From Heterotrichella gracilis (Eukaryota > Sar > Xanthophyceae > Tribonematales > Xanthonemataceae), in assembly GCA_032358255.1 (NCBI GenBank), contig JAULBX010026896.1:1-42215 (forward strand): 42,215 nt of DNA. Direction: 5' to 3'. Below the pieces are notes generated by a model. The model was not told the DNA's origin, did no database searches, and worked only from the letters and a program-made list of their open reading frames with translations. Below are positions 1 to 38,300 of this stretch, piece by piece. The position numbers and the translations under genes were made by a program. The stretch's first letter is position 1; each line of letters opens with the position of its first letter.

Positions 1-3000
1 CCCCTCCCCCGCCTTGCACCCCCATCCCAGGCTCATCTGCCCCTTGCACCCCCTCCCCCGTATGATGCACACCACCTTGTGCACCCGCCCCTTGTGCCCC
101 ACCCCCACTAGGCCCATTCGCCCCCCCCATGTGGTGTGCGCGTGTGCTTCGTCGGTTGCGCAGCCACAGCACCAGCGACAGCATCCCCACCAGCACAGTG
201 ATGGCCCAGGTGTCGGTTTCAATGGAGGACAGCCACCACAGGGAGGGGTGGGGGGTGGGGGCGGGGGTTCGCGGGGCGACGGGGGGCGCGGGCTGCAGGC
301 CTGTCAGGAGACGATGGGGAATGGTCAGTGAACAACCAATGTCGTGGTTCAATGAATCATGTACAAGGGGGGGTTGGGGGGGGGCTGCTTCAACAGATAC
401 TTTTCACCTCCTGACATTCTCACGATTACAGAAAATGTATACAGAAAAGCTTACAAGCAAAGAACCAGCTGATATCATTGTCATGTCCCTACTACAAGTG
501 CACCCTTGCGCTCTCTTCCCCCACCGCCCACCTGCAAACAGCATGAGCCCGCGCGCCGCCACCGCCAGCGCCGCCCCCCAGTTTGCCAGGTACAGCAGCA
601 CCAGCCCCGCCACGGCAGGGGTGCGCATGTGCATGGAGGGGCTCACGCGGTAGGCGCGCCAGTACAGCTCCTCAGCAGTCGACACCTGGCGACAGGGAAC
701 ATGGGGCATTTTAGGGTTTAGGGTCTACAATGTGCATGGAGGGGCTCACGCGGTAGGCGCGCCAGTACAGCTCCAGCTCCTCAGCGGTCGAAACCTGGCG
801 ACAGGGAACATGTCATTTAGGGTATAGGGTTTAGAAATTGTCAAGGTTTAGGGTTTCGGCTCCGTAGTGTGGACGCCAAAAAGCGCCTGCCGCACAGCAG
901 GAGGTGGACACTTGATCAGGGATGTCATCACATGGGCAGTGGTCAGTGCCATCGCATGTGCAAGGGCCGTTGCCACCAACACAAGGCTTACAAATTGGAA
1001 AACCAAGGTAACGTAATGCCCAAAACTGACACGTTAAAATCCATAATTTGACTATTATCATGGGCACTGACCAGGGGTACCATCCCGTGGGCGCAGCGAT
1101 GAGTCAAACTCTGTGTGTGCCCCACCACATGCGGCATGTCGGTTTCAACCTCGTCTGCACTTTTCTTATCTGCGATGTGTCCCTCACCTGGCGTGGCACC
1201 CCATATCCGTACGCGTAGCACCATGCCAGGTTGACCATGCCCTCCACATCACCGGCTGTGGCAGCAAGCTGATACAGCTCAGCCGCACGCGTGTAGTTGG
1301 TGCCTGTGGGGGGTAGGGGGAGAGGTGCTGGGTAAGAGGCCCTGAACCCTAATGATGTGGAAGTGGCAACGTGCGGATTGAGCAGGATGGCGTTGGTGAT
1401 CGACTGGTCTGCACTGGGTTTGTATTCCGCGATGCGCCACCAGGTCGGTGTTTTGCACAGCTTGAGCATGCTAGCTCAGTACCTTGCATCCGTCCAAACC
1501 TGCGCCTCCCGTTGAAACCACACCCTTGACAACCCCTCACCCCCACCCGCCCCTCCCCACACCACCGCCGCCACTCACCTCCCTCCAGCTTGTACCTCGC
1601 CCCGTGGAAGTGCAGGTCCCCGGCATAAGCATAATTTTCAACCAGGCCCAGCTGCCCGGCACGCAGCAGCACAGGCAGTGCACGCGCGTGGCGCTCCTGC
1701 CCCTGCCCTCCCGCCCCCTGCGCCATGAGCCAGCCCAAATTGGCTGCCGCAACAGCGCTGCCCTGCTCCGCTAGGAGGGCGTAGTGGACGATGGAGGCCC
1801 AGTGGTCGCCTGGGGAGGAGAGGTGGGGGCTGGGTCAAGGTTTCTTGGGCGGCGGGAAAGGAGTGGAATGCAGCACATGCAGCACATGCAGTTCCAAGCT
1901 CCATTTTGTGGGGCACTGGGTGGATGTCAGGGCGGGTGTAGCGTCGGTTGAGTTTGTGGGCAAAGTCCGATGGATCACAGGAGGTATCATTGCCGCACCA
2001 GCAGGCGGGTGAGTCCCACCAGCCCCCACCCACCCATCCGCCCACCCACCTCTGTCGTACGCCTCCACCGCCGCCCGGTGCGCGTCCGGCCAGTGCCCCC
2101 GCTCCGCCAGGAACATGCGCACCAGCGACTGGGCGCGGGTGGCGTTGAGCGGCACTCCCCTGCCCTCCTGGTGCAGCACTGCCAGGCTGTAGGGGGCGCG
2201 CCAGTGGCCGGCATCCAGGGCCTGCTCGAACAGCTGGGCGGCGTGGGTGGCGTTGGTGGTGACATCGGTGCCGGCTGCGGAGGTGGGGTGCGTGTGGGTG
2301 TGGCGGTTTGCCGGTGGTTTGCCGGTGATTTGGCTGTGGGCGGGTGGTATGTGGGACATTGCATACATACGTCCCCTCTCCCAAAGGGCAGCATCAAATT
2401 AATTTGTGGTGCGGGCAAAGGAAGGGGTCCTATTTGGGAGGCAGGGACCCACCCAGGTAGAACGATGCCAGGTTGTAGAGTGAGTCTGGGTCCTTGAGCG
2501 CTGCCCCCGCCTCAAACGCCTCCCTTGCCAGGGTCATATTTTTTTCCACCCCTTGGCCCTGTAGGAAGACAGCACAAGGGGGAATGCTCATGACATGGGG
2601 GCAAAATTCCTAAAGCAGGGTCACACGGCAGAGTGCTATAACGCTATGGTTGGATGCCAGCAATACAGCCGGATCAGCAGTCCCCCTTGCATAGCCAGCG
2701 TTTGCCAGCCCCATACCATGTGTGAACGCGCATTAAACACGCATGTAAAACAGAGGAGAAACATCCGTCAGCATGGCGGCAGGCAAAATCTGGGATCAGA
2801 CACACCGCGACCTCCTCAAACAACCACAGCAACAACCACAGCAATCCAAACCCCACCATCACTGCCACATTACAAGCCATCCAGCCCCCACCTGAAAACG
2901 CAGCACCCCGAGGCCTTATACCCTAAACCCTAAACCCTAAGCCCTTAACCCTAAGCCCACCTGGAAGTACAGCACACCCAGCCCGTTGTAGGCCGCAGCC

Positions 3001-6000
3001 ACCCCCTTGCCTGCCGAGGTCTGGAACAGCTGGGCGGCGCGCGTGTGGTTGGTGGCCACGTGGATGCCCCTCGAGTACATGTACCCCAGGTTGTAGATTG
3101 CGTACTCATCCCCCTGGGCAGCTGCCAGCTGGAACTCCCTGAATGCCCGCTGGTGGTCCAGCTCCACCCCCCTCCCAATCAGGCGCCGGATGCCCACCAG
3201 GCGCTGAGCCAAGGCAAGGCCCCTGCACAGGGTAACAGGACAATTCATGACCTCGGGCTTCCTTTCCAGCCCTGAATCCCAAAATATGAAATCAGGCGCC
3301 AGGACAGCGTACCAGCAAGATTTCGACAGAGACGGTTAGGGTTTGTGGTACTGGGGAGTGTGGCGGTACAGCAGCATGCGGGCATGTAGGTACTATATGA
3401 TCAGCCCAGCTGGAAGTCAAAGCTGAGTAACGACAAGAGTGACGAGAGTGGGACACAAATGTGGGCCAATCTGAGGCCACATGTGGCAAAATGCTGTACG
3501 AAGTGTCGTTAAGTGTGGGTGCCTAGTGCCTAACATGGCGCCAGGTGTGGGCATGTGGCCTCAAAATCCAACCATGGGGTATGGGTGATGCCACAATGTG
3601 GCACCAAATGCCAAGTATATATGATGCTGAAGTGTTGAACATGCAGTCTCCATGCCCCCACCTCCCCACCACCATCACCACCACCACCTGTTCAGCCAAG
3701 TCCTCCTCCATTGCCGAACCACCCCATCACCCACCTGTTAGCCAGGTCTTCCTCCATTGTCCCATCCACCCCACCCCTCCTCCACCACCACACCCACCAC
3801 CCACCTGTTAGCCAGGTCCTCCTCCTTGCCCACCACCACCACCACCACCGCTCACCACCTCTTTATCATGCCCTCCTCCACGTCCCCCCCATCCCCCCAC
3901 CCACCCACCACCACCACCATGACCTACTAAGCCAGGCAATCCTCCAATGCCCCCATGCACCCCCCACCACCTCCTCCACCACCCACCCGTTAGCCAGGTC
4001 CTCCTCCCTTAAGCCCGCTCCCCCATCCCTTTAAAACCCCCTCCTACACCGCTTTAATCCCCACTCCTCCACCACCACCACCCACCTGTTAGCCAGGTCC
4101 TCCTCCATTGCCACCACCTCCGCACCATTCTCCCGCTCCTCCTCAGCAGTGTACCCAGCATCCATCCACCGCTCGCGCAGGTACACGGGCTCCGGGGGCA
4201 GGTGGAAGGAACCCGCGGCCTCTGCACCGGCAACCAGGTCATCGGCAACAAACTTGGCGCGCCTGTGGGGAATGGGTGGGGGGATGGGATGGGAGGGTAT
4301 GGAGACCCTGAGGCAGCAGATACATCTTGATTTGGCTACACGCCCAAAATAACTCGACATTGCGGCACTGACAATGTGCCTGATTGAAGGGTATACGTGC
4401 AAGTTGCTAGGATAGACATGGGGATGAGGGTGCTACTTTTGGCATGTGAGCCTCATCTTGCTTGTTCCCAGCCGGCAAATGGATATGCCGCCACAATCCC
4501 TCAACCATGCTTAGTACCGGCCCACCCCTTGCCGCTGAATGGGTGACTAGGATCTACCATCTCTTCAGTCTAGTGTTCCCCTGCTCCTTCCTACACCACC
4601 CCCTCAATCCCCCGACCGCCTCAGTCCCCACCTCATCCCCTCTGAAAAGCTCTTTGGCACCCCCCTGCCGGTGAAGTAGCGGTCGGCCAGTGCCAGGTGT
4701 GCTTCCATGGAGCCAGTGAGCGCAGCGCGGTGCAGCATGTAGGACATAGGGTCCTGTCCCCGGGAGCGCAGGGAGGCAAACAGGGTCTTTACCTAGGGAT
4801 GGGGATTTCGATTCATAAGAGAAATAATTTGTGAAATGCGCCTCCATTTATACTATAACGCCGGCCCGGTCAAATATTTACTCCTTTAAAGTCATTGTGG
4901 CATGCCGTTTCCTGGACGCAAATGCAGTGGAGCTGGTAGGTGACAGGGCCCTGGCCGCAAGAGCACAGGTTGCCAAACAGGGACTTGACCTGGGGATGAA
5001 AGTTCGATTTGCATCACTAACTAGTGATGAATGCGCCCGCGTTTTTGTACCAGTTTGCACAATTCCCAGGTCGCATGGCTGCACTCAATGTGCAAATCGC
5101 TGCCAACCCCGTGTTTGCACACCATGCCATCAGTGGAAACAAACCCCTGCTGGTAAAACCCCAGAGTGGGTTTGAACCCCAACTAAAGCATCCCCAGTCT
5201 GGGTAAACTACCCTAGCTCGAGTGTGGGACAAAACCCCGAGTTAGGGTACCCACCTGTGGCGTGAGCTGGCTGTCCTCAACCAGTCCCGCTGCCAGCAGT
5301 CCAGCAAGGGTGAAAGTGGCGTCCGAGCAATCTAGGAGGTCGTTGCCAATCGGGCCGGTGAATGGGCCCCCCTTGGGGATTGTGTCCCAGGGTGGTGGGG
5401 GCTCAGCAGGGTCAGACTGCACGCGTGGGGGTGGTGAGTCAGTGCCTCAAGTGCGGCAAAAATGGTGGGACTTGGCAGTGGGATGGTGGCAACCATGCCG
5501 TATATTGCATATATTGATTGGAAACATATTTATTGGAAACATACATTGGAAAACATTCTCGTCTGTGCCGCGAAGGGTATATTATTATCCTAAACCTTGA
5601 CACTCTCCGTTCCACAAGTGATGGCGTGATCCTAAACCCTAAACCCTAAACCCTAAAACAGTGAAGTGTCTTCCATGGATTCGATACGCGTGATCACAGT
5701 GGCCTAAATAGGACACTCAGGCCACATTTGAATGCACATTTGCTACACATGGAGGTGCACATGTGGGTAGAACGTATGATGCTCCTGCATGGCTGGCAGT
5801 GCACCCTGGAAATCAAGTCCCTCTGCTCCCTGCACGCCATCATACTCACCGCATCTGGGTAGCCCGCTGATTCCAGCCCGCCCTCCCCAGGATCTGCATC
5901 CCCGCCTGCTCCAGGCCCCTGCTGGGATGCACCCTCATCCCCGCCACTTTCTGCAATCTGCTCCTCCCCACCACCCTCTGCTTGGGCGCCAGCGCTGGCT

Positions 6001-7318
6001 GTGCTAGGGTTTTGGTTGGGTTTTAGGTTGAACAGGGGGTCCAGGTAAGCGAGGTCACGGGGAGGATTGGTGTAACGTGTGCGGTGCTTGGGAGCGCGTG
6101 GCAGTGCTGCATCCAACCGACTGAACATGTGGCACAGCCCGTAGACACCTGCACCATGCAAAAACCAATGACCAGTAAAATCCACTCATTATTCAAATGA
6201 ACAGTAAAATCAACATTTTTTAAAAAGTGTATTGTATCAGATTCATAACAATGTTGATAATTAAATCGATAAATTCGCTGTAATCTATAGTGATACAACT
6301 TGTATCATACAAGTAATGATCCTGGTTTGCACCACATGCTGCCCGCTGCACCCGCGAATGTTTTGTCCTGTTCCTGTTTTGAGTCGCCCACCCACCTGCT
6401 CCCACATCCCGCACAGACTGGTTCAAAAAAACCTGGTCCTCGTATGCCACCAGCATATCGGCGAACATGCGCTCCACTGCCTGCTGCTCGTGCCAGCTGG
6501 CATCCTCCTCCTCATGCCCTTCCCCATGCGCATCGCCATGTGCATCACCCCTGGCAGTCAGGTCGGGGATTGACCCACCGCGGTGCCGCTTGCTGCCGTG
6601 CTGGCTTGCGCCTAGCTTGGATGCAAACGATGCTGCGGCGCCAGTGCTGGCGGGTGTGTCGTCTGCTGCTGCGGTTGTGGCTGGTGCAGGTGAACCATCC
6701 TGTGCGGTGTGGATGTGTGTGACTGACAAAGGCTGCTCCTCGTCTTGTGTGTCGTAAACCCCCTGCTGCAAATGCGTACGTGCGTGTGAGAGGGCGTCGG
6801 TGGTGGGGTTGGGCCACACCCGGCTGGAAATGACAAAGCGCGAGAGACTGCATCATTGCCAAGGTCAGAAATAACAGCAGTGCATGTGGCACTACACAGC
6901 GTGCCGGACACGGCTAAATTTATACCAAACTGACCGACCCAACGCATGTCGGGTGTGCACAGTAAATGGGAGGTTGGTCCCCCGCATGTATGCAATGTGT
7001 ACCTGCGATGCGGCAGCTTAAAAGCGCATGACACACCTGTTTTTGTTCCTGTTGGTGCGCAAGCTGACCCGAGACGCACAGCAGCCCTGCAAGCGTTGTA
7101 TGCGTTGTATGAGTGGGTAGCGGTACGCTGGGTGTGCATCGCTTGCCGGTATCATGACACTGAGTCATGGCCTTTTGACTGCTGAAGTGCATGCCCGAGC
7201 ACTAGTGAAGGTGAGGCACCCAATAAAGGCATGCCTGACAGCTCGCATTGCAAGAGGGCAGGCATGCAGCCGTACCAACGAGGGCACCCAACAGCTGTTG
7301 GCGCGACCAGCGTGTCAT
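1..7318 (-). CDS. HRD3: HRD3/SEL1L-type Sel1-repeat ER-associated degradation protein (3' end outside window)
   Basis: Adaptor subunit of the ER-membrane HRD1 ubiquitin-ligase complex; in this family the lumenal Sel1 repeats recruit misfolded glycoproteins. Exons joined by splice consensus and phase: 6396-6823, 5850-6148, 5255-5416, 4632-4792, 4086-4262, 2961-3222, 2453-2558, 2050-2274, 1579-1809, 1188-1303, 532-685, and 300 to beyond base 1. The frame stays open throughout, giving about 870 residues. Sel1 units are clear: ALADRYFTGRGVPKS (4632-4792), YNLGYMYSRGIHV (2961-3222), SLAVLHQEGRGVPLN (2050-2274), NLAWCYAYGYGVPRQ (1188-1303). The last exon encodes a hydrophobic anchor, WAITVLVGMLSLVLWLRNRR, as in HRD3 C-termini, then a Gly-rich tail with no stop before the edge. 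The 5' end is provisional: ATG 7318 opens a signal-peptide-like exon (7220-7318), and a 50-nt exon (7037-7086) joins it in phase. Family assignment is strong; the first two exons are inference. Confidence 0.87.
627..830 (-). repeat. Tandem duplication of an HRD3 exon start with its 3' splice site
   Basis: Bases 627-713 and 730-830 are two copies, period about 103 bases. Each holds about 20 intronic bases, the acceptor (cctgtcgccag in sense) and the first 55-65 coding bases. The 627-713 copy is the working exon start and reads VSTAEELYWRAYR. The upstream copy carries a 6-base insertion, reads VSTAEELELYWRAYR, and then meets a TAA supplied by a CCCTAAA unit at the junction. Both copies contain an internal GTGAGC that could act as a 5' splice site. 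Confidence 0.9.
2921..2958. repeat. Interstitial telomere-type repeat beside an HRD3 5' splice site
   Basis: About five CCCTAAA/CCCTTAA/CCCTAAG units lie a few bases inside the intron after the donor at 2960, so the transcript sense strand carries TTAGGG/TTTAGGG units directly after gtgggc. Confidence 0.9.
3684..4110 (-). repeat. Array of six copies of an HRD3 exon end plus 5' splice site
   Basis: The real exon end at 4086 (sense ggaggacctggctaacag, then gtgggt) recurs in diverged form near 3690, 3738, 3808, 3928 and 3990. Spacing is irregular (about 50-120 bases), and CCA/CCACC-rich low-complexity DNA separates the copies. Several copies keep the intact ctaacag/gtgggt junction, so the intron between 3223 and 4085 contains a series of decoy donor sites. 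Confidence 0.88.
4742..5020 (-). repeat. Diverged duplicate exon upstream of HRD3 exon 4632-4792
   Basis: The first part of exon 4632-4792, with its acceptor, resembles 4925-5010 at about 70 percent by eye. In sense the true exon reads VKTLFASLRSRGQDPMSYML and the upstream copy reads VKSLFGNLCSCGQGPVTYQL from a similar AG acceptor. The upstream copy then loses similarity and reaches a stop without a clear donor. It is probably a relic or alternative exon inside the intron 4793-5254. Confidence 0.75.
5627..5657. repeat. Interstitial telomere-type repeat, CCCTAAA units
   Basis: Three perfect CCCTAAA units and flanking partial units lie in the HRD3 intron 5417-5849. The telomere type is the one found in plants and many trebouxiophyte algae. 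Confidence 0.93.
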
Positions 7319-8625
7319 GGTGGTGAGCCCTTCATCCCCTCAAGGTTGACCAATGGCTCCACAGGAAAATGCTGAATAACGGCAACTCTTCAACCTGTGC
7401 GAAGATTTGCGATCAACCACGGGTGTGGAAGTTGCCCCGAGCCATCCGCAGAAGTAGAATGCATGCATATGCATGCATAACTCAGGCATGCACAGTATAC
7501 GTCGGCTTTGACCAATAACAAACACAGGCCGTTGAGAATAAGATCCCGACTGCGCACAGTTGTTACGAAGTGTTAGAGGAATGAACGGGTGGAAGGCGCA
7601 TCATCACAACAACGCAGGGGTTCAAATACTCTTGTTCTTGTGCAAAAAACAACCTCTTGCCGATGATCAGCGAACGGCCGACACGGTGGCCGAAGGGGGC
7701 GCTGTCACCACAACTGTGCATATCATACTACTACCAGACAGTTGAAAGCCTACCTGGGTGAACTCCGCTCAGCGATGGAGTGGAGAGTATGCTCATGTTA
7801 CAACGCTGTGTCCTGGGCTGTGTCTTGGGCAAGGGTTGCAGTGGTGCTGAAACATATCCCAGCGTAACGTTGTATGTGCTGCTCGCCTTCTATCCAGTGG
7901 CAAGTGATCTCAACACCCCAAATCAGTGACTTGTCTTGCAGTAATACTGCAACTTTTATGGTATGTAACGTAGCAGGCAGGCTATGTCACTTCAGTAGCC
8001 TGTGGTGTACTACAGGAGGAACTGGACTTCAGCCTGAAGTCCAGGCTAACAAACCACAGGGCGCGCTTTCAAGCTTGAATAAATTTTTCACGCTGAAAAC
8101 GTTTGCCAAATAGGACTGTCATTGAACGGCATTCTTCAACACGTGGCTCCTTTTTACAAAAAGTATTATTCCCAAAGCCAGCCGCAACATGCATCACCGT
8201 GATCACCGTGGTTGTGCGGTTTCTACATGCAACACCTACCTGTCACCCTGTGCATATTCCACGAGATATACACATATAAGTACACAGTCCACATTCCGTG
8301 ATTACAGATATAAATAAACCACAACAATTTTAATAAAAGGAAACAAAATGCAAAACACAGCGGCAAACCACAAAAGCAAAGAATACTGTATTTATATACC
8401 AACAGATATTATTGATTGATTTCATTAATTAAGTAAAATTTAAGCGAATAAAACTAGCAACATTTTCTAAGTACATAATCTGATGCCAAACTTCAACAAT
8501 TCTACGGAATATCACATGCGTGGTCAGCGTCAAGTGTATTTCAAAGCCAGCAGCAACATTCAGCGTTAATCACATCAACTAGCGACTAATGATACCACAC
8601 AGCTGTGTACATGGCATCGTGGGCA
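7319..8625. other. Intergenic region between HRD3 and FL-A
   Basis: No coding exon could be supported. It contains the 5' side of HRD3 and the 3' side of FL-A. It includes a 20-base perfect palindrome of ATGCATGCAT units at 7459-7478 and an 11-base inverted repeat with a one-base spacer at 8022-8044 (arm ctggacttcag). Bases 8270-8480 are clearly more AT-rich than the flanking genes. Confidence 0.7.
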
Positions 8626-10957
8626 TCATGACACCGCAGGCAACCCCCTCCACTTGTCATCCGCCATGCGCTGCAGGTTGTCTACCAGCATGTCAGGTGG
8701 GCATTGCAGCTGCCACCCATCCTCCACAAGCGCCTCCATTTCCGGGCAGGGCTCAAAGGAGTGCACCCACACCCTCCTGCTGACACCATCAGCCTCCAGC
8801 CTCAGCTGGACAAGTGGCGGGCAGTCCTCCAGGCGCTCCCACAGCCACACCAGCACAGGCGCTGCTTCAGCCATGACCGCCTTCATGATCATGGCCTCAA
8901 CATATTCCGCGGTTGCTGGTAGAGGCTCCCAATCCCTCTTGTGAGCTTGAATGTAGCAGTAGTGGCCCCGCTCCCCTCCCACTTCCAAACCAGGGCCATC
9001 CAACGCCAAGGAGGTCATTGGCTCGAGCTGGTCAGTTGCGCCTTGCACCACCCCAACACAGCTCAGCTCCAGATCCACGCAGCAGCCCATAGGTCCTGTC
9101 AGGCAGCCGCTGCCATCCCTGCACTCGCTGTGCGCCACCACCAGCCTCTCCAGCGCTGTCAGGGTGGTCACTCCCTCGCCCAAAGGCAGGACCCTTCTCT
9201 TGTCGTAGCCAATCACAAGCTCTGTCAGGCACGACAGGTTGGGGAAGCGGAGGTCCAAGGTGGGCTCATGGTCGACTAGTTCATCAGCTGCATACATCGG
9301 GTGCCTTGACAGCTCCTTGATTACTGTCAGGCTGTGAATGTTGGTGAGGGACGCCACGCATGGCGGCAAACATCTTTCCCAAGCATTATGTAGCAATTGC
9401 AACCCAGCTGCAGCGCCATAGAACATGTCTGGGTAAACCCACAAGCCTAGTGCCGTGAGGGCACTGAGCCTAGTGAGGCAACTGAATGACTCCCCACACA
9501 AGTCCACGCTCTTCAGCACAAGGTGGGAAAGGCTAGGGAGCATGGAGGGGAGGCTGTCCAGCTCTGAAAGCATCAACCCGCCTCCCAGGCACCCTTGGTA
9601 GCCCACCCGGTTCCCAAAGGTGAGGCTGCGCAGGCTGGTGCTGCTGCTGGGGGAGAAATACCAAGGAGCGCCCTCCTCGTGTCTCATGAAGGCCGCCATG
9701 GAGTTGAAGAACTGGGCAAGATCCGCCCCCAAGGCAAGGTCATACTCCTCCAGGTGCGGGAAGCACTCGAGGCTGGCGGGGGAGAGGAGGCCAGCCAGGT
9801 GCAGCGAGGTGAGCGCTGTCAGGGTCTGCAGGCTGTCTGACACGGCTTGGTAGGTGTCTATCATGTCGCGAGCGTGCGCACTGGCACCCTCCGTACTCAG
9901 CTCTGGTACTTCCAGCGCCAGGTGCCGCAGCTGTGACAGGCTGGGCAGGCAGGCCAGCTGCCCTGCCAGGCCGAGAATCCGCTCACGGTTTGTTTCCCAG
10001 TCTTCCCACATGCCCCACCCGCTCATGCCCGCTGACAGCGCCAGCTCCAGGTGGGTGAGGTGCGGGGCCCGGGCGAGGGAGGGGAGGGCAGCTGCGGGTG
10101 CATCAGTGATTGCCAGGTGGCGCAGGCTGGTGGCGCAGGCCAGGGAGGGCGGCAGAGTGGGGAGATCAGGTTCCATCCACGTGACTGCCAGGTGGCGTAT
10201 GCTGGGCAGCACTGACTCCAGCCAGGGGAGGAAGGAGGGGTGGGAGGCGGCCGCCTGCGCGCACAGGGCAAGGTGGTTAGTAAAGTGCAATCCAACTATT
10301 TTAACCAATAGAGATAGAACAGTGCAGTATTACCAGTGCACAGTAGGCATGTGCTTGGCTGTCAGGTGGTAAGGGAGAGTGCCTTATAACTTTTCATCAA
10401 AAAACCATGGAATGTTAGCATCCCGAGCCGCAAACCTAGAGGGAGGTCCAGGGCCACTCAGGCTGTCCTAGTATTTAGGGACCTTTGCAGCAAGATTCAG
10501 ATGGTACAAGCACTGCAAGGATAGTCCTGGCTGGCGCTGTACGTACAGGGGTGAATAATAGACTTGCTTGTGAGCGGGATTGAATCTAATGATATGAAGG
10601 AATTAATACCAAACGTGATGATGTGCTGCAGAAAACACCTAGACGCTGCACCATTGGCAGGTCAACCCCATTTCTGCATCTGTGGGCAAAGTACCCACGC
10701 CCTCCAACCTCCTGCCCACGCACCTCTACTGTGTCCCACAGTGGCGAGGGTCCCTGGCTGAGCGCGCGCCACTCCTTGCACACCAGCGGCACCACCAGTG
10801 CCCTCTCCTGGGTGGTGAGGTGGGCCAGAAGGGGCCTCAGCACGTCGCCGGGGAGGCGAGGAATGTGGGGAGGGGGCGGGGGAGGGGGCGGGGGTGATTT
10901 CACGGGGGTTGGTGGGGAGTGGGGGATTGCACTCGGCTGGTGGGTGGCTTGGGCCAT
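8626..10957 (-). CDS. F-box/leucine-rich-repeat protein FL-A (intact member of a four-copy family)
   Basis: Probably a substrate receptor for an SCF-type ubiquitin ligase; the substrate is unknown. Exon 1 is 10724-10957 (78 codons from ATG 10957) and exon 2 is 8626-10254 (543 codons with the stop). The join is phase 0 at GAG/gtgcgt and gcgcag/GCG, giving about 620 residues. Exon 1 has a Pro-rich stretch (SPPPPPPPPP) followed by an F-box-like segment with LPGDVL, RALVVPLVCKEWRAL and LWDTVE. Exon 2 carries irregular LRRs (LPSIRHLAVTW, LTALTSLHLAGL, LSALTALGLWVY). It ends in a module shared with the paralogues (MAEAAPVLVWLWERLEDCPP, then RVWVHSFEPCPE). It is the only copy of the four without a visible disabling change. 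F-box and LRR calls are from motif reading; substrate and SCF membership are inference. Confidence 0.85.
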
Positions 10958-12600: not shown

Positions 12601-12609
12601 CAAACGCAT

Positions 12610-14536: not shown

Positions 14537-17500
14537 TCACCAAACCCAGTCAAGCCTGGACCTCAGCCCCAGGGGCCAGTGGCCCAGCACAGCGCTCCGC
14601 ACATTCTCTGGTGGCGGCGGGGCATCGCCGCAGGTGCCCACCTCCAGCAGCTGCAGCCGTGTGGCCCCACAGGCAAGCCGGCTCCAGTGCTTCCCGCTCG
14701 CCTGAAACAGCAGCAGGAGGGTTGGCTGGCCATGTATAATGCATGGGTGAAAAAAACAGTGGACATCCCAACATGTCTGATGTTTGGAGATCTTGCAGGA
14801 TGGCAATGCCCTTGGCTAGCTCCGTTTCCTTTATTTCCTTTATTTAGCTTATTATTTATGCCCGTGTGGGTGACAAGGTTAAACCATTGTCCTAACACGA
14901 TCCAACCTTGTAACCTCTGCCCATAAACCTTGCAATGGGCAGATACAACATTCTCTTCACATTTCGCACCTGGGACAGCAGCCTGGTGGTCGGGTTGGGG
15001 ATGTGCAGGTGGGTGAGCTGGGACAGGGCTGCCAGGCAGGTGAGTAGGGCAGAGGGGGTCTCGCAGACGCTGGGCAAGGTGAGGTCCCTCACGCCGGTGA
15101 GGAGGGAGAGGGAAGCAATGGCTTGCTTCCACTTGCGCCACTCCACCTTGGTGGGCTGGTGGGAGGGGTCGGGGTTGCTGTGTGGAAGGGGGAGTAAAAT
15201 GATCAAGAGAATGTAAAGAAATTGAATATATTGGGCTAGTGGGAGGGGTCGCGGTTGCTGGGGAAGGGAAGCAAACAAATTTACAAGATTGCGGCCCACC
15301 AATCGTGCCGCTCCCAGATGAGATGAAGCAACTCCAAGCCCTAAATCCTAAAACCCGCACAGTGCCACCCGTCTCACCTGTGGAGAGATGGCGGCATGGA
15401 GTTTGACCCCACGCCGGTGCGCTCATCCTCGAATCCCAGCTGCGTCAGGTGGGGATGCTGCAGCAGGGTGGGGATGAGCGCTGGGGAGGGGAGGAACAGG
15501 CTGTTGACCTTCAGCTCCCGCAGCCCCGTCAGCACTGCAAGGCCCCCTGCAGCATCATTGGCTGCCACCAGCCAAGGGTGGCAAGGGTCTGTCCCGTCCC
15601 AGGCATCCGCATCGTGCGCCCACTCGGGCGTGGATCCTCGGGTTGCTGGGTGTGTGCACAGGTGCATGTCCTCCCACATGATTTTCAGCGATGACAGACG
15701 CGTCAGATGGCCTGCAATTGGACAGTACATATATAAGTGGATATGCACGCATCTGCAACTGGAAATTGTGCAAATGCGGTCAAGCTTTTGTCTGCAGTGC
15801 GCTGCAGTTGGAATAGCGATAGTGCACAAGCGGTGAACTTCTATCTGATATATACATCAGGACGGCAAAACCACAAATAAGCAAATTAAAATAGAGCGTG
15901 TAAACTACAAGGCGTTTGCTGTAACCAAGCGCAGACACCGGTACGGCAGATGCACCCCTATATCTGCATGTACAGCACGTGGCTATGGACGACATCACAG
16001 GCAAGGCCTACCTGTAATACACTCCCACAAGGTCCTGAACAGCGCCAGCGTCCCCTCAGGCGTCAGCCCCTCCACAGCACACTGGAACATCGTCAGCTTG
16101 CACAGCCCCGTCAACCCGCTCAGCCCCCGCAGCGCGCCGTGGTTAGTCCCCAGCGTATGCAAATTCTCAATCTGAAGCTGCGTCAACCCACCCAGGCCAG
16201 GCAGCATGTCCAGCCAATGGGTGGTCATGGTGGCTGGGTCCCAGGAGGGATCCCGAACATCCTCCACAAACAAATATTTCAGCTGAGAGAGCGATGCCAG
16301 TGCGCTGGGTGCCGGCCCCTGTGCGCCTGGGCTGGTGACCTTGGCGTGGAGGCTGGTGAGGTGGGGCAGGGCTTCCACCAGGGACGCGTGGGCGGGGGGC
16401 GGCCAGTCGCAGTCGGGGCGGGCGCTGCGCAGGTCCTGGAGGCTAGCCAGGCATGCCAACATGCGGTCCAGGTCTTGGGAATTGACGCCTGTGGTTTGGC
16501 ACGGAGGGTGGGTTGATCCAAAACACAAAATTATTTGTTTTCCAATTTTTAGTTTCATCCTATAGGTTTGGATGCTCAGGCAATTTGGTGGTACATGGTG
16601 CATCCAGCAAGCAGATGGACTTGGTTTTGTGCGGGGGTTTGAATTTGCTCAGGTGGTTTGCCATGGAAGTGTAATGTATTGGATGTCACATTAATGATTT
16701 ACGGTCTGCTACCACACAGGAGCACAGCATGGAGGTCAAATGCTGATCTCATTACAGGAGACGATCCCATATATGGCACAGGCAATTATGAACAACTTTG
16801 CAGTCTGCTCTTGAACAGGCGCATTGGCTAAGGCAACGTAAAAACAGTATTTGCCCTCCTGTCCACTAATTCACTTTACAACAAATATACGCCCCGCCAC
16901 CCACCTTGAGAGTTGGATGGCCCCTGCCACGTCAGCTCCCTCAGCCCCTGCAACGCCGCCAGCTGGCGCACCGACTCCAGCCACACCCCTTGCTCGTCAA
17001 AGTCAAAGTACAGCCCTTGCACGTTCAGCCCCGTCAGGCAGGTGAGTCTGCTGACTGCACGCAGCACCTCGCTCCCGGGAATTACGTGGTAGGAGTGGGA
17101 GAGGTCCAGTGCCACCAGTGAGACCAGGGGGGTGAGGAAGTTGGGTCGGTCCTCTGGGGAGGTCAAGCCCAGATTGGGGATTGCCTCGGGCAGCATGCAG
17201 CCCTGTGGGCATAGAAATCCATAAATGAGACATTATATTAAATAAACAATATATTTATGCAGCTCTGTGAGGTGGGCCCAGAAAGTAGTATAAAATTGGG
17301 TTTGTGAAAAGGCACTGGTTGGTGTTTATGCACGGCACTGATATACCATTACTGCAGTACAGCCAGCATAGCAGGTCCCGGGCACAGCTTATGTCACTTG
17401 CTTTATATATTCTCACACAAGATGCCATGCGCCAAATGCATGCAAGGCTTTGTGCATGCTTGTAACCAAACCCTAGGCAAGGGTTTAGGGTTGATCACCT

Positions 17501-27302: not shown

Positions 27303-29511
27303 ATGATGGACCAAGACATCAACCAGCCACCTGCATTCCCCACCCCTTCTGAAAATCAGGGTGACTCACCAGCCCCCATGAATCCACCCGAGCCCTCGCC
27401 TCCCGTCCTCTCCCTCCCCTCCCTCCTGATGCAGCCCCTGCTGGCCACCCTCACCACCCAGGAGCGGGCAGCGGTGGTGCCGCTGGTGTGCCGAGAGTGG
27501 CAGGCTCTCAGCCAGGGGCCATCGCCGTTGTGGGACACGGTGGAGGTGCGTGGGCAGGGGTTACTGGAGTATAGATACTTGCACAAATTACAAAAATGGA
27601 TTGGCAAGTCAACATAGCAGCATCTGTTGTCACGATGGTTGTGCCTGCAGCGTGTATTGTATTTTGCCAATAAATATGGTTTTTATTAATGGGCTAGTTT
27701 AGGTGCGGATTGGACCGATTGGTAGTGCAATTGTATCAACCAGGTGAATAAAACAGAACCTTGAAAAGTATTAGCCACCCACCTCTACAGCCTGACTGCC
27801 AAATACCTAATCAGATGGTTGCACCCTACAATATACTGTCTGCCTGCCCAAGTGGTACTGAACACCGTGCATGTTCTCACAGGCGGCTGCCGCCCATTCC
27901 TCCTTCCTCCCCTGGCTAGATTCAGTGCTGCCCAGCATACGCCACCTGGCAGTCTATTGGATCGCACCTGATCTGCCTGCCCTGCCGCCCTCATTGGCCT
28001 GCGCCACCAGCCTGCGCCACCTGGCGATCGCCAATGCGCCCGCAGCCGCCCTCCCCTCCCTTGCCTGCGCTCCGCACCTCACCCACCTGGGGCTGGCGCT
28101 GTCAGTAGAGGGATACGGGTGGGGCATGGAGCGAGACTGGGCAAGAAATCTAGAGGGCATGCATGGCCTGGCAGTGCAGCTGGCATGTCCATCCAGATTG
28201 TTGCAGCTACAGCACCTGACACTGGAGATCCCAGAGCTGAATGTGGATTGGCGTGCGCCCGCTCAGGAAGTGATGAGCACATACCATGCCATGTCAGACA
28301 GCCTCCATGTGCTGACAGCACTCACGTCCTTGTACCTGGTTGGCCTCCCTGGTCCCACCCGCCTTGAGTGCTTCCCTCATCTGGAGGAGATGGACCTTGC
28401 TTTTGGGTTGGATCTGGCCAACTGCAGCCGCCACCACAATCTGATGAGGCTAGTGCTCCCTCAGACAAGCGCCATGATAAACCAGCCGTGGTATTTGGCC
28501 CCCAGAAGCAGCAGCAGCCTGCACAGTCTCACCTTTGGGAGCCGGGTGGGCTACCGAGGGCAATATGGAAGCGGGATGGTGCTATCAGACCTGGAAAGCC
28601 TCCCCTCCATGCTCCCTAGCCTTTCCTACCTTGTGCTGCGATGCGTGGGCGTGTGTGGAGAGCCTATCACTTGCCTCTCCAGGCTCAGTGCCCTCACAGC
28701 ACTAGGCCTGTGGGTTTACGGTGACTCAGGCATGCGTCACGATGCTGCTCAACTTCGGCACAATGATTGGGATGCATTTGTGCCACAATGTGTGGCGTGC
28801 CTCACCAACCTTCAGAGTTTGACAGTACTCAAGGACCTGTCGAGACCAGGGTACAACACGAGGTATGCAGCTGGTGGACTGGTCAACCCATGGCATGGCC
28901 CAACCTTGGACATCCGCTTCCCCGATCTTCCTGGCCTGACAGAGCTTGTGATTGGCTACAACAGCAGAATGGCCCTCCCCTTGGGCAAGGGAATGACCAC
29001 CCTGACAGCACTGGAGAGGCTGGTGGTGGCGCACGGCGAGTGCAATGATATATATGACAGCAGCCACCTGACAGAACCTATGGGCTGCTGTGTGGGTCTG
29101 GCACTGAGCACCATCGGGGTGGTGCACGGCAAGGAGCCAGCCTACTTTGAGTCATATGGCCCTGAGTTCAATGCTCACTCTGATCAGGAGTTGGGTCATT
29201 ATCGCTATATCGAAGCTCGCAAGGGGTATTGGACGTCTGCACCTGAGTCAACAAAATATGCAGAAGCGATGAACTTCAAGGCTGTCATGGCTGAAGCAGC
29301 GCCGATGTTGGTGTGGCTGTGGGAGCGCCTGGAGGACTGCCCACCACTGGTCCAAGTTAGGCTGGCAGAAGGGGGTGAAGGGGTCAGCAGGAGGGTGTGG
29401 ATGCACTCCTTTGTGCCCTGTCCTGAGCTGGATGTGCATGTGGAGGGAGGGTGGCAGCTACACTGCCCACCTGACATAATGGCAGACAAAGCTGCAACGC
29501 ACGGTGGATGA
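27303..29511 (+). CDS. F-box/LRR paralogue FL-D, late frameshift
   Basis: Exon 1 is 27303-27545 (81 codons) with a Pro-rich lead and an F-box-like segment (LLATLTTQERAAVVPLVCRE, LWDTVE). The intron is 27546-27882 and exon 2 is 27883-29511, phase 0, giving about 623 residues. The LRRs and the shared C-terminal module (MAEAAPMLVWLWERLEDCPP, RVWMHSFVPCPELDVHVEGG) are intact. A single extra A in the run at 29488-29490 (gacaaag against gacaag in FL-C) shifts the last residues and stops at TGA 29509-29511. FL-C continues for about 25 more residues, ending VPQLFVW, and the corresponding bases of FL-D run to about 29574. FL-A also ends short, so the shorter tail is probably tolerated and this copy may be functional. 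Confidence 0.8.
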
Positions 29512-30671: not shown

Positions 30672-33600
30672 CTACAGCCTGTATTTCCCTCTGAGCTGCT
30701 CCATAGCCTGCCCCTCCTCCGCACCACACCCCGCCTCTGCAACCCCCCATGCCTCGCGCAACCCCGCCCTGTCCCGCCCCGAAAGGCACATGGTCACCAT
30801 GTCGAACCTGGCCACACGAAAAAAAAGCAAATGAAGTTAAGCTCTGCCTGTCCTTGAACAAGCGCTTAGGTTGATAGCACCTGCAGGCGGTGATGAGCAC
30901 CGTCCCCACGTGGATACACTGACCAGATGTGGCCACATGCCGGAGCACTTCTATCTTTCACATCCAGCTGCCAAGTGCCCCTCCCAAGGCAATATGAGAA
31001 AATGAAGGAAATGTATCTATCGATGCATGATATTATAGCTCAATGTCAAATTTATCCCAGATACCACCACTATATTCATTAAATAATTGTTTTAGATATT
31101 TGGTTGTGCACTGGCTTTCCAAATTACTTACATGAAGCTGTACAGCCAGATTAGCATATAGAACGGATTGTATTAGATAACAACAATACGAAATTTGGCC
31201 ATTTCAGGGTTTATGGTTTAGCGTTTATCGTACCTGGCCACCCCCGCCAGCTGCTGCAGAAGCCTGAGGCGTTGCTGGCCTGGCCCCATGGCCAGCGCGG
31301 CGTGGGTCACGGCCACCAGGAGGGCCCCTGAGAGGATGGTTTTGAACAGCGCGGGTACCGCAGTCGGATCCAGCAGCTGCATGTAGCGCTGCTGGAGGTC
31401 TGGCTTGTCCTTGAGGCCCCGCCAGGTGCGCTCAAAGTCAACGCCTGGGGGGGTAAAATGGGGGGCACGCACATGTGAGTTTGCTTGGGGTGGATTGCAT
31501 GTAACAATCAAACAGGAAACGTGAAACGCATGCAACATGCGGCTGTAATTGCAAGCGGCTAACTATGTAAATGTGGGCTATTAAATGGAATGCGCTGTGA
31601 TCACTCGTTGCCATTGCATTCCGCAGCGTGCCATAGCCCATCCATCAACATCTCCACGGGCCAGCCCTCACCAGCCCCTAACCCCAACGCCCATGTGGGT
31701 CCCTCAAACACCTCGACCTCGCCTCCCATCCCGATCCCCCACCCACCTGACTGCGACACCCTCATGCCCACATAAACCCTAAACCCAAAACCCAACACCT
31801 AAGCCTAAACCCGCTCCCCAAACCTAACCCACCTGACTGCGGCGCCCTCATACCCTCTTGTGCCGCCAGCCGAGCCGCCAGCTTGACCCCCTCCTCCTTG
31901 TCAGACGCCACCGCCGCTGCCTCCACCAGTGGTGCGCGGCCCTGCGATGACTCACCACCCGCCTGTGATGCCTCCGCACCGCCTGGTACACCCGCCTCCA
32001 CTCCTTGCATGGGTACTGCCTTGGAAGGGGCTGTGACAGTAGGCTGTGGCAATGAGGTGCGTGCCTGAGGGGGTGCAGCTGGTTGAGATTGGCTCCCTTC
32101 CTGTGCCACACTTGCCTGGGCTTGTGCCCCAGATTGAGCGTGTCTCCCCCCTTGCTGTGGCCCCGATTGGGTGTGTTTCCCCCCTTGTTGTGTTCCACAT
32201 TGGGCGTGCTTCGCGCCCTGCTGTGCCGCTGCCCGCAGCTGTTGGGCTGCGCTGAGTGAGCCGCTCTCCTGTGGAATGACCACCTTGGTGGTGCCAAACA
32301 GGCCGGTGGCGTCGTCGTCACCTGCGGCCCTGGGCCGGGTGGCGATACCCTCGGAGGGTTTCGTGGAGGGATCCAGGAGGAGGCTGGAGGTGGGCTGGCG
32401 CCGGGCGGCGGCGGGTTGCGGTGGCTGCACATGGGGGGCCTCTGTGCTTGCGGTCGCATGGTGCAGCCCCCCTTGGCCACTGGCGGCGGCTGCGCTGGGA
32501 GCGGGTTTTCCAATTGCCACTGGGGAGGTTGGATCAGCCAGTGGCGTCATGGCCGGTGATGGTGGCGGGGCTTTGCTACTGGAGGCACCAGGCTGTGGCT
32601 CCGCACCTCCAACCGCACGCACCCCACTCAATGGCACCGCACTGCCTGGTGCCTCAAGGCTGGTGCGCCCACCCCCAGGCTGTGCACTGGCTGTACCCGC
32701 AGGTGGCTCCATGGTCACGGGTATGCGGGTCCTGGCACTGGAGGTTGATGGCGGGCCGCCGCTACTGGCAGCAGGACCCTGTGGCTTTGCTGCAGTATCC
32801 CCCACCACACCCACTGTCCCTGCACCTCCTGGGGCCAGGCGGCTGGTGTCCCCAACCCCGCCTTGTGCAGTACTGGAGGTACCTGGGGGAAAAGAATGCA
32901 AATTTGAGGAAATGGGGTGAACAAAAAGCAGGAATTGGAGAGACAAGAAGCAGCTGCTGAAGGCTAGTCAAGATCAGGATGCGTAACATTTGGCAGGTAC
33001 CTGCGGGTGGCTCAATGGTGACGGGTATGCGGGTGCGGGTAGCTGCAGGCACCAGTCCCTCTTGGGCTGTCAGCAGTGCCAGGCATGCCCTGCGCTCCTC
33101 CTGGAGGGCCTTGCTGCTGGGCTGCAGGCGGACGGCCTCCTCAAAGTCGCGCGTGGCATCCAGAAGCCTGTTAAACAGGGGGTGGGGTGGGGATATGTGG
33201 GGGCATCGTTCGTTGGAGGGGCCATTTAGCGGGACAGCTTGTTGGCCGTGCTTTTGCATGGCTGTCATCACCTAACTGCCCCAAAATATGCTCCCAGGCT
33301 CCAACAAATTGGAGCTTACTGAACAGGATCAGGTCCATCAACTCAGCAAGATGTGGGCACAGGATGGACCCTCAATTGTCTAGCAATGTTTTTGAGACAA
33401 GGTGCCTCATAAAAGAATCTGCACACTAAGCAACCATAGTCCTATTCACATGCATACAGCAGGTTTGTTGAGCCGCGCATGTGCGGACCTGCCCAGCGCC
33501 TTGCGTGCGGTGGCTCGCCGCTGGTAGGCCTTGAGGTAGCCTGGGTCCAGCTGTAGAGCCTCAGAACAGTCACTCTCAGCTGATGCATGCTCACCCAGCT

Positions 33601-35394: not shown

Positions 35395-38300
35395 TCACGA
35401 TGGCTGCGCTGTCAGCACCACATCCTCCTCCTGAGCGCTGGCAGTGATCGTCTCAAGCTGCACCATGCTCTTGAGAACAGTATCCCATGCAGGGTTGGAC
35501 AGCCATGCCTTCTTCAGGTTGGAATCATCCTGCAGTGTGCAGAACAAATTTACAAAAAAAGCACACATGCGCAAAATACTGTATATAAGGTGAAGTAACG
35601 CGTAGCATGCGCAAACTGGGTGGGCACTGGCATCATCGTCCCCCAGCAGATTGCCAAGCATTGAATGTTCATTGTAATAATATTAATAATATTATTATTA
35701 ATAATATTACAATGAACATTCAATGCTTGGCAATTGAATGTTCATTGTGCATGCTACAATGATCCCATGCAGCATGGAGTCTCAGTGCAGCACTCTGTAC
35801 CATCCAATGCTTGGCACATGCTGTATATATAGACAGCCTGAGACATGCATTATTGAGATGAAACGGGGACATTCTTGCAAGATATGTCCCCATGGTATGT
35901 ACCATTGAAATTGAATCACTGCACTGACCTGGGCAGCTGGCGCAGTTGTTGCAGGTAGCGCAGCACTGAGAGCATCCACTGCCACCACCAAGTCAACCAT
36001 CTCGTGGCATATCCTCTCCAGCAAGAACATGAAGTTGAAGAAGCGGATCTTGGCAAGGTATCCTTCCAGTGATTCTGGGAATGTGAGCGTCTCCATTGCT
36101 TCCCCCTGTAAAGGAACGGAATGGCTGAATTGTGGACCGTGCTGGCACGTTACGCGCCCACACAATTGCATTATTGCCAGCCAGTTCAGTAAGTGGGACA
36201 TGGTATGTGACACGTATATTGCTGTGGTGCAGCCTTGGTCATGAGCACCGCCATGTGCACAGGACTCACCCGATACGTGGGGCTTGTGCTGTCAAGTGGT
36301 GTCCCTGCATATCCTGGATCGGCAGCACTTGAAGCTGGCTCTCCATTCCGCAACTTGGGCAGGTGAATCCTCAGAAATGGACTTATTTCAAGCGATGCCT
36401 GAACAACAGGTCCTGGGTCAGGAGATGCTGAAGGGGCGTCCCAGTCACCATGCCCGATGCTCTCCCCAGGTGCCGAAACTGAAGGAACCACTGAAGGGGA
36501 CGACTCTGGCGGCGGATGTGAGTTTGATTCAAATTTGGGCTGTTCCATCAGAGCTGCGGCGCCCAGATCCTGCTGACACTCTGAGCCTCGTTTGGTGCTT
36601 CGGTCAAAGCCGAGGTTTGACATCCTCGCCCGCGTTGGGGTGCATGGACTAGCTGCTTGAGAGCTGTGGGCTGTCATGGGTGACTGCTGGATAGTCGGCA
36701 GCCGAGAGAACCCCTCATCCAACAAGGGTCTGGAAGGCACCCTAATCAAGAGCGACGAGGTTGAAGAGCTTCCCTCTGGAGCGAATGAGCTGACAGAGTC
36801 CTGGTAGCCTCCCATAGCTGCTGAACCTGCCTGAGAAGGCTCGTTGCTGTCTGGGACGCCAGCGCTGTGATCCGTGTCTCCATCTCTGACCTTGATCTTG
36901 GAAACATCTGGTGCACAGTGGGTGTACTTCTTGATCTGCTTCTAAACATGCTGGCCCATGGGTGTGAGTCTCAATGTGTTACACATTGTGCTGGAAATGG
37001 AACCCACCTGGGTCCGTGCAATGCAAGAAGAAGGGCCTACCCACCTGGTGCACTCTTGCTGCGAATCACACCCAGGACTTGGTGCCGCTGCTCCTCTGAG
37101 GTTGCCATGAGGGCATCCACTGCCTCCAGGAGCAGCTTGAGGTTGTCACGAGGCACGGGGCTTTCAGGAAACCCATCCTGCAGCAGGTAAAACATAAGGG
37201 ATTATCACGTGATACAGCTGCATGGCTGACGGTCATCATTGTCTTGATCATCATCATCCTCTTCTTCTTCTTCTTTATTGATTTATTTCTTCAATTTTAT
37301 CATGAGATGTCGTCGTCAAATGTTCATCATGATCAACATCAGCTTCTTTATTGATATTTTTTCTTTTCTTTTCATGTGATGCCATCGTCAAAAGTTCAAC
37401 ATGCGAACGACCACCTTCCCATGGATGCATCAAGGCAGCTCCATTTGCTGGATAGACAGCAATGGCGCTTTTCGATAACAGCCAATCATGCCAGTTCAGT
37501 TGCAGTGTGTCTCAAACAAGCTGGTATAAAACCCTGAACCCCAAACCCCAAACCCTAAACCCTAAACTTTAAAACAGTACGTCTCAAGCACACTAGTTTG
37601 ACACCCAACCCTGTGAAGTAGCAGTACCTGTGGAAACAATCCCAGGATGTCAAGCAGGGTTGATTCAGCATGTGTGACTTTATACGATGCAAAAAATCAC
37701 TCTTCATTCATTTTTTGTCATGATGCACCCGCCAACCATGCCAGTGTGCATCATGCAAGGTGATACACCACGCAATGATGTATTTCTGGTAGCAGTACCT
37801 GTGGAAACGACCCCAGGATGTCAAGCAGCGCTGCCTCAGCATGTGTGATAATGTCCTGCAGCACTCGAGCTGGGTACCGGCTCTGCAGCTGGCCAATCAT
37901 CAGCGACTCAAACCCCTCGTGCACGGTGGTGTGCATGGTCCACAGGTGGCGCCCCAGCCGGCGCAGGTGGGACTCCACCTGGTCAAGTGCCGCAATGGGC
38001 ATGTGCCACGCGTCCTTGGTTGCAATGCTGAGAGTGGGGGCAAAGTACCTGTGCACAATGTCACATGTCACATGAATGTCCACAACGATTACCACATTTG
38101 GTGTCAGTCCAGCCAGCAACCTTAAAGACCATAGAGAAAATCCATAAAATAAAGAAAAGAAAACAGACGCCGAAGGCGTGAATACATGAACCACCATCAA
38201 CAAGCATCCACATTGAGGCTGATCTGGTATCTCATAGCTGTGAACCACGTCAATTGAGAGACATCGCATACCTAGAATTGTTCTTTCGCCCAACGAAGAC

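Follow-up and report, generated by a model that had tools for sequence, protein, structure and literature searches.

The contig JAULBX010026896.1 of the xanthophyte Heterotrichella gracilis (assembly GCA_032358255.1), here called the window and analysed over its whole length of 42,215 nucleotides, carries recurrent short duplications in which the end or start of an exon is copied nearby together with its splice site. Counts in the window and in 28 other loci support splice-site duplication as a genome-wide habit that goes beyond chance, and the duplications often lie beside telomere-like repeats that crowd the edges of introns. The reading preferred here, to which we give slightly better than even chances, is a recurrent, tract-linked local tandem duplication whose spare copies are retained neutrally.

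Of the 15 duplication clusters in the window, seven extend across a predicted exon/intron junction where 2.25 are expected (at least seven in 2 of 1000 placements), and these are the same seven sites that a preliminary description of this DNA had pointed out; the stricter of two complexity filters leaves 4 of 9 clusters against 1.1 expected (13 of 1000), three of the seven sites being recovered by the lax filter only. In the 28 other loci, 47 of 114 clusters are junction-spanning against 29.0 expected (0 of 1000), and donors carry the excess, with 29 clusters against 14.0 (0 of 1000), while clusters holding both kinds of junction number 6 against 2.2. The other classes comprise (i) intron-intron pairs, 28 against 35.7 expected, (ii) exon-exon pairs, 17 against 15.8, (iii) exon-intron pairs that include no junction, 14 against 17.4, and (iv) intergenic pairs, 6 against 10.9. 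Under the strict filter 33 of 70 clusters span a junction (16.7 expected) and 21 of 70 a donor (8.2 expected), each at 0 of 1000. Nine of these loci, fetched after the hypothesis had been formed and serving as a later subset, give 17 of 45 junction-spanning clusters against 9.5 (5 of 1000) by themselves, or 11 of 23 against 4.8 (4 of 1000) with the strict filter, so that the genome-wide habit that the preliminary description had raised as a possibility is upheld in both sets. The same description had proposed to set junctions against segments that do not span them. A duplication covers the junction itself at 55 of 481 donors and at 40 of 483 acceptors; among midpoints, those of 14 of 317 exons and of 23 of 407 introns are covered. 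The contrast with intron midpoints holds overall for donors (p 0.003) and fails for acceptors (p 0.15). When the other copies were scrambled, 45 of 49 junctions were predicted all the same, and the junction calls are therefore not created by the copies.

The window is an entire contig (C438) of an assembly of 68.5 Mb in 903 contigs, and 29 further stretches of 10 kb were sampled at fixed positions of chosen contigs. One of these stretches (L002, contig C1, 894 kb), with a GC content of 36 percent and an open frame of 839 codons, is unlike the others; it is probably a contaminant and was left out, and the window and the remaining 28 loci total 322 kb (322215 bases), or about 0.5 percent of the genome. 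Genes were modelled by a self-trained, unsupervised exon-chain gene finder working from the DNA sequence. Its first run overfitted (1985 exons in 232 kb) and gave way to a stricter version, later retrained with the added loci. The final version yields 109 genes and 690 exons in the 322 kb, with the donor CAG^GT(G/A)nGT (the caret marks the junction), a median internal exon of 133 and a median intron of 237; an earlier run on 232 kb had given nearly the same values, with the acceptor TGCAG^G. From a set of 20 gene models, 12 were compared with known proteins or families, 8 of them by way of Pfam, and no RNA family reached its gathering score in the window. Since the predicted proteins match the Pfam families amidase, GH18, DUF389, AAA_12, FBPase, Sel1 and TPR/RPAP3_C, and align with solved PRPP synthetase, ThrRS, pyruvate kinase, NRAMP and SBPase, the models so compared are broadly sound; where model and homology conflict at duplication sites, the predictor has called a spare copy or a read-through intron an exon. 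The duplication scan took offsets of 20 to 800 and ungapped alignments scoring at least 16 (+1/-1.5), and returned 359 raw pairs in the 322 kb against 3 in three first-order Markov shuffles together, of which 284 pairs in 129 clusters stayed after removal of simple repeats. Results are given for both complexity filters, the strict one (0.85, first used) and the lax one; the strict filter lost strong examples, for instance in locus L017, and its clusters underlie the codon-position counts, the polarity test, the scrambling test, the base-cover figures, the simulation, the per-locus correlation and the counts of tracts inside duplication spans.

All seven intervals of the preliminary description are real local direct duplications, confirmed by a repeat listing, by reading of the sequence and by an unbiased scan. 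Among the best 20 of 35 families in the repeat listing, site 1 corresponds to D16/D19, site 2 to D1/D2, site 3 to D10, site 5 to D20, site 6 to D18 and site 7 to D13; at site 4 (15150-15262) the copies are plain on reading the sequence. The unbiased scan finds the seven at 627/730, 3785/4066 (array), 4727/4924, 15152/15232, 31741/31827, 32693/32997 and 37618/37789. Their parts, in window positions, are as follows.

Site 1, 627..703, minus strand: inner copy, an acceptor (CCAG^GTGTCGAC) with the exon start, in a Sel1-repeat gene (PF08238).
Site 1, 730..812, minus strand: upstream second copy with a decoy acceptor, its ungapped pieces 100 and 95 percent identical.
Site 1, 709..724, plus strand: telomere-like tract TTTTAGGGTTTAGGGT, between both copies.
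Site 2, 3659..4110, minus strand: seven-copy array of an exon end with its donor (GCTAACAG^GTGGGT).
Site 3, 4727..4801, minus strand: exon start with acceptor 4792/4793 (D10).
Site 3, 4924..4998, minus strand: the other copy, 75 percent identical, inside the intron upstream (D10).
Site 4, 15152..15180, minus strand: exon start with acceptor 15177/15178.
Site 4, 15232..15260, minus strand: second copy in the upstream intron.
Site 5, 31827..31855, minus strand: exon end with donor (CAGTCAG^GTGGGT), in an RPAP3-like gene (D20).
Site 5, 31741..31769, minus strand: downstream second copy.
Site 5, 31773..31812, plus strand: tract of degenerate telomere-like sequence separating the two copies, 20-60 nt downstream of the donor.
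Site 6, 32997..33034, minus strand: exon end with donor 33000/33001 (D18).
Site 6, 32693..32730, minus strand: second copy, coding, within the next exon, forming an in-frame peptide repeat (D18).
Site 7, 37789..37848, minus strand: exon end with donor 37798/37799 (D13).
Site 7, 37618..37677, minus strand: intronic second copy with a decoy donor, 90 percent identical (D13).
Site 7, 37528..37569, plus strand: telomere-like tract past the outer (decoy) donor, 54-99 nt after it.

Reading of the sequence agrees with the earlier count of four donor-type and three acceptor-type junctions, and the automatic labels differ at two sites: at site 1 the best pair counts as donor owing to a predicted donor at 749 that is itself doubtful, the remaining pair being of the acceptor type, and the array of site 2 is labelled donor and acceptor, as the predictor breaks the gene there. 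An identical stretch runs at 627-774 in site 1. The copies of site 2 are 61-81 percent identical to a reference copy over 54 nt, and the copy adjoining the exon lies at 4086-4109 by reading of the sequence, the predictor setting the donor at 4072. Sites 1-3 fall within two neighbouring gene models, possibly parts of a single gene, in which case the earlier figure of four genes is right. At site 5 the predictor makes the intervening 86 bases a short intron whose donor and acceptor flanks are in register, and the exon called after it (31672-31746) is doubtful. Site 6 differs in kind from the others, both copies being coding with an intron between them (peptide repeat TRIPVT[I/M]EPPAG in an RPAP3-like TPR protein), and it offers no intronic decoy. 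Spare intronic copies that carry a splice site bear out the proposal that the process creates decoys. The gene of site 7, one of the 8 models given to Pfam, matched no Pfam family.

A plain background of duplication is another candidate source of such a pattern: events would fall anywhere, exon-internal ones would be purged, junction-spanning and intronic ones would survive, and exon constraint would ease the detection of those that span junctions. Junction-spanning duplications can indeed be splice-neutral, intronic copies do decay neutrally, and exon-exon pairs lie near their placement expectation. We nevertheless regard this account as improbable, for a background simulated on the gene models and stripped of exon-internal events gives ratios to intron-intron pairs of 0.24-0.27 for donors and 0.12-0.27 for acceptors, against observed counts of 21 to 15 and 9 to 15 (strict) or 29 to 28 and 12 to 28 (lax). 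With splicing tolerance only, the simulated donor/intron-intron ratio is near 0.25 and the observed one about 1.0 (lax) to 1.4 (strict), and donors, or the tracts adjoining them, therefore seem to attract the process. Such a background predicts neither the link between duplications and tracts nor the crowding of tracts at intron edges described below. Duplications also cover few intergenic bases (339 of 42628, against 4749 of 141621 intronic bases), yet the intergenic cluster count is only mildly low.

The telomere-like tracts consist of (TTTAGGG)n or (CCCTAAA)n, with a median of 20 nt, and number 129 in the first 232 kb against 8-27 for eight shuffled-heptamer control units. Seven contigs (C70, C140, C526, C609, C717, C770 and C824) begin directly with (TTTAGGG)5, and the unit found at contig starts is the one found inside introns, which identifies the tracts with the telomere repeat of the organism. 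TTTAGGG telomeres are known from green algae, for example from a Trebouxia assembly (PMC12712428). Of the 182 tracts, introns hold 168, intergenic DNA 11 and exons 3, these compartments making up 160674, 47714 and 113827 of the 322215 bases, respectively. Within introns the tracts are densest over the first 60 nt downstream of donors and at 20-60 nt upstream of acceptors, occupying 4-6 percent of bases 0-40 nt from the donor versus 1.2-2.5 percent beyond 60 nt, and the peak at intron edges persists when duplication spans are excluded. The 5' half of introns holds 62 C-rich and 43 G-rich tracts on the sense strand. In the 3' half, across all loci, G-rich tracts are scarce (13 versus 50 C-rich); TTTAG^G looks like an acceptor and CTAAA like a branch point, and splicing may explain the scarcity. 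Contigs C41, C61 and C29 differ strongly in tract density from C21, C33 and C57. Tract abundance goes by region: paired stretches that begin 50 or 180 kb apart on the same contig have correlated counts (0.79, p 0.01, nine pairs).

Tracts and duplications go together at several scales. Their counts correlate per locus (0.75, 20 loci), and 19 of 47 duplication spans contain tracts, compared with 10.9 in same-locus placements (the largest of 500 being 21) and 6.2 in placements at any locus. A tract follows within 60 nt at 62 donors, 54 of them scorable, and a second exon end stands beyond the tract at 18 of the 54, compared with 10 of 363 scored donors of tract-free introns (Fisher 3e-11); permutation within loci preserves the link (18 versus 9.5, 0 of 10000). 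Acceptors with a nearby tract have a second copy in 7 of 35 cases against 10 of 343 (p 3e-4). The anatomy was read from 52 events at donors and 38 at acceptors. At donors the duplicated piece takes in 13-95 nt of exon and, in 32 of the 52, no more than 13 nt of intron. Past the outer copy, too, there is a tract in 20 of the 52, among them 13 of the 25 with a tract between the copies, and under a looser criterion 19 donor events have a tract after both donors; in 17 of these 19 the two tracts agree in orientation (p 0.001), as expected if the tract is part of the repeated unit. The tandem unit thus looks like an exon end, its splice site and the tract, the tract part changing too fast to align. 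Some tandem units form arrays (site 2, D1, and loci L006, L012 and L014), with units of tens to about 150 bp. That a single mechanism lies behind the seven sites, as the preliminary description had proposed, gains support from these shared tracts, of which it made no mention, and falls short of proof.

Copies flanking a tract could also result from staggered double-strand breaks at exon edges repaired with telomeric repeats, by telomerase or by capture of telomeric DNA, where fill-in of the overhangs would duplicate the flanks so that tract and duplication arise together. The copy-tract-copy anatomy and the TTTAGGG at the start of several contigs fit this, and interstitial telomeric sequences inserted at double-strand breaks are described in primates, rodents and horse, with direct duplications of the target known at some mammalian insertions (PMC2246262, PMC7215372; review PMC6410037, all as excerpted). 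Simple insertion does not predict the tract that follows the outer copy in the donor events just described. The polarity of telomerase, with a G-rich tract abutting the left copy and a C-rich tract the right one, does not appear either, the left copy being nearer in 9 (expected) and the right in 17 cases for plus tracts, and the left in 10 and the right in 14 (expected) for minus tracts. In the excerpted mammalian reports flank duplications are a minority, at 3 of 66 loci in horse and, as the table reads, at 6 of 130 in rodents and 4 of 25 in primates. We hold this origin, the chief rival of the preferred reading, to be possible and, on balance, doubtful.

Several results weigh against tract-linked tandem duplication. 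In the 28 other loci acceptors alone are not enriched (12 clusters against 12.8 expected); in the nine later loci neither donors alone (7 against 4.7, 175 of 1000) nor the cover contrast (14 of 154 donors versus 7 of 127, p 0.36) reach significance, the latter also leaving the comparison of junction and other segments unsupported in that subset. The copies enclose a tract in only 25 of the 52 events at donors and 13 of the 38 at acceptors; counting tracts between the copies or beyond the outer copy raises this to 32 of 52 and 18 of 38, and many duplications therefore stand without a visible tract. By counts, the far joint is no nearer the tract than random placement in the gap would put it (within 5 nt in 8 of 25 donor events against 8.4, and in 4 of 13 acceptor events against 3.5) and, the telomerase polarity being also absent, the tract is therefore not claimed as the breakpoint. 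By mean distance, the acceptor joints do lie closer to it (18 versus 43 nt). All counts, moreover, depend on the unsupervised gene predictor and on the sampled half percent of the genome.

The spare copies look for the most part intronic and neutral. Both the codon positions of the mismatches and the retention of splice dinucleotides are as expected of intronic copies that decay neutrally. Where only one member of a pair is coding, mismatches fall at the three codon positions 43, 47 and 69 times of 410 each, close to what would arise if the spare copy changed freely and the exon copy at synonymous sites, compared with 23 of 245, 18 of 245 and 58 of 242 in coding-coding pairs. GT persists at 40 of the 52 second donors, against 40.5 expected from identity, and AG at 32 of the 38 second acceptors, against 28.8. 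In one-coding pairs the exon copy lies 5' for 12 of 12 donors and 3' for 9 of 9 acceptors, an arrangement that geometry partly forces. Against solved proteins, residues 116-126 of PRPP synthetase are matched twice, by the exon end and by the spare copy, two spare copies in NRAMP, which like that in PRPP synthetase the predictor took for exon, are insertions of 17 and 11 residues, and in ThrRS and pyruvate kinase the alignment crosses the duplicated junction with no insertion of the copy. The FBPase/SBPase-like protein of locus L024, whose closest solved entries are 7b2o and 5iz3, which we take to be Chlamydomonas and moss proteins, fits its solved relative poorly around the duplication and is not counted as support.

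Two classes depart from neutral intronic copies, namely coding-coding pairs (e.g. 32693/32997) and the DUF389 gene of locus L008. In the latter gene (6022-8715) several exons occur as partial tandem copies with telomere-like tracts, and one copied exon part, which differs mostly at third positions by eye, may be in use. These cases, together with the codon-like constraint of both-coding pairs, are what speaks for copies being kept for function as alternative donors, acceptors or exons, an origin that is very unlikely for the set as a whole: intronic copies carry no codon signature and lose their splice dinucleotides at a neutral rate, and copies would be insertions relative to solved PRPP synthetase and NRAMP. 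The alternative exons envisaged in the preliminary description accordingly find no backing in the codon-position and splice-dinucleotide counts.

Still less probable, indeed most unlikely, is that the duplications are intron births, whether from a stretch of exon with AGGT that is duplicated in tandem or from an introner-like element that brings telomere-like sequence with it. Intron flanks are alike in register (score of at least 9) in 9 of 496 introns against 2.1 when other introns of the same gene are used, and site 5 (31741-31855) is readable in this way; a telomere-like tract occurs in 1 of the 9 in-register introns, and the sequences flanking masked tracts match another sampled locus in 1 of 182 cases, against 16 of 182 for random intron pieces. 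A dispersed element carrying the tracts was accordingly not seen in the sample. New introns, one of the outcomes suggested earlier, are at most a side branch.

Further repeats were noted in the window. The RPAP3-like gene holds three 33-bp coding repeats (32123-32221, D15). Direct repeats of about 100 bp, predicted to be intronic, lie 395 bases apart at 12627-12736 and 13023-13131 (76-85 percent identical). Similar predicted-coding segments about 4 kb apart, at 19951-20041, 24323-24413 and 27932-28031 (also 20706-20970 and 28672-28942; D5, D9), look like tandem paralogues of a single gene. At 35660-35750 an arrangement resembling a palindrome occurs, in which the sequence before an AT-rich TAATAA run recurs after it as its reverse complement and is followed by a further direct copy.

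Under the preferred reading of tract-linked duplication with neutral retention, an ongoing mutational process would make short local tandem duplications within genes, the repeated unit often comprising an exon end (13-95 nt), its splice site and the neighbouring intron-edge tract. The tract would probably stall replication or break, and repair by template switching or unequal exchange would re-copy the adjoining exon edge. As the unit includes the splice site, the mRNA would be unchanged if the 5'-most donor or the 3'-most acceptor is used, and the spare copy would end up in the intron and drift there as a decoy. The duplications themselves, the donor excess, the tracts with their position at intron edges, the link between tracts and duplications and the neutral-looking decay of the spare copies are direct observations; that the tract provokes the duplication, and that tolerance by splicing underlies retention, we infer from them.

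The separate parts of this process have known counterparts. Tandem duplication yielding introns is described for a potato RdRp gene (PMC4974935, in excerpt), where, as here, a local tandem duplication carries splice signals inside a gene; in H. gracilis, by contrast, the introns pre-exist, the spare splice site is mostly intronic, telomere-like tracts are involved, and in-register likeness is a small excess and not the rule. With the interstitial telomeric sequences of mammals, as the excerpted reports describe them, the tracts share their shortness, their position inside chromosomes, the near absence of exonic ones and the sometimes duplicated flanks. The intronic share of such repeats in human is given as 31 percent and called compatible with random insertion (PMC7215372, in excerpt), unlike the largely intronic tracts seen here, which crowd at intron edges although introns make up about half of the bases, and flank duplications seem far commoner here than at the mammalian sequences. 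Introners (PMC9860276, in excerpt) are likewise a recurrent genome-wide source of splice-site-bearing sequence; they form dispersed families, in some with target duplications of 3-9 bp, whereas no shared body was found in the present sample and the duplicated piece is 13-95 nt of local exon. Minisatellite-type tandem duplication and exon duplication resemble the present case in the size of the units and in their occasional arrays, and differ in that the units here are placed preferentially across exon/intron junctions. In the titles and abstract openings of the open-licence papers that the searches listed, most subscription journals lying outside them, nothing joins telomere-like repeats, intron edges and splice-site duplication, which is weak evidence that this company of tracts and splice-site duplications is new, its parts (tandem-duplication introns, interstitial telomeric insertions and introners) being known singly.

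It can be proposed, tentatively and with the balance still tilted the other way, that junctions, and above all 5' splice sites, are preferred sites of telomere-repeat-linked breakage and re-copying, which would add telomere-like DNA to the borders of introns, duplicate the adjoining exon edge, lengthen introns and steadily yield decoys. If this is true, it would be a junction-directed source of intron growth, of which the surveyed literature describes none, and a directly testable source of competition between splice sites. Through repeated copying of exon edges, mutation alone would provide the substrate for alternative donors and for boundary shifts, and perhaps for a new intron now and then. 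The finding joins interstitial telomeric repeats with the edges of introns, and the genome of H. gracilis offers many natural cases.

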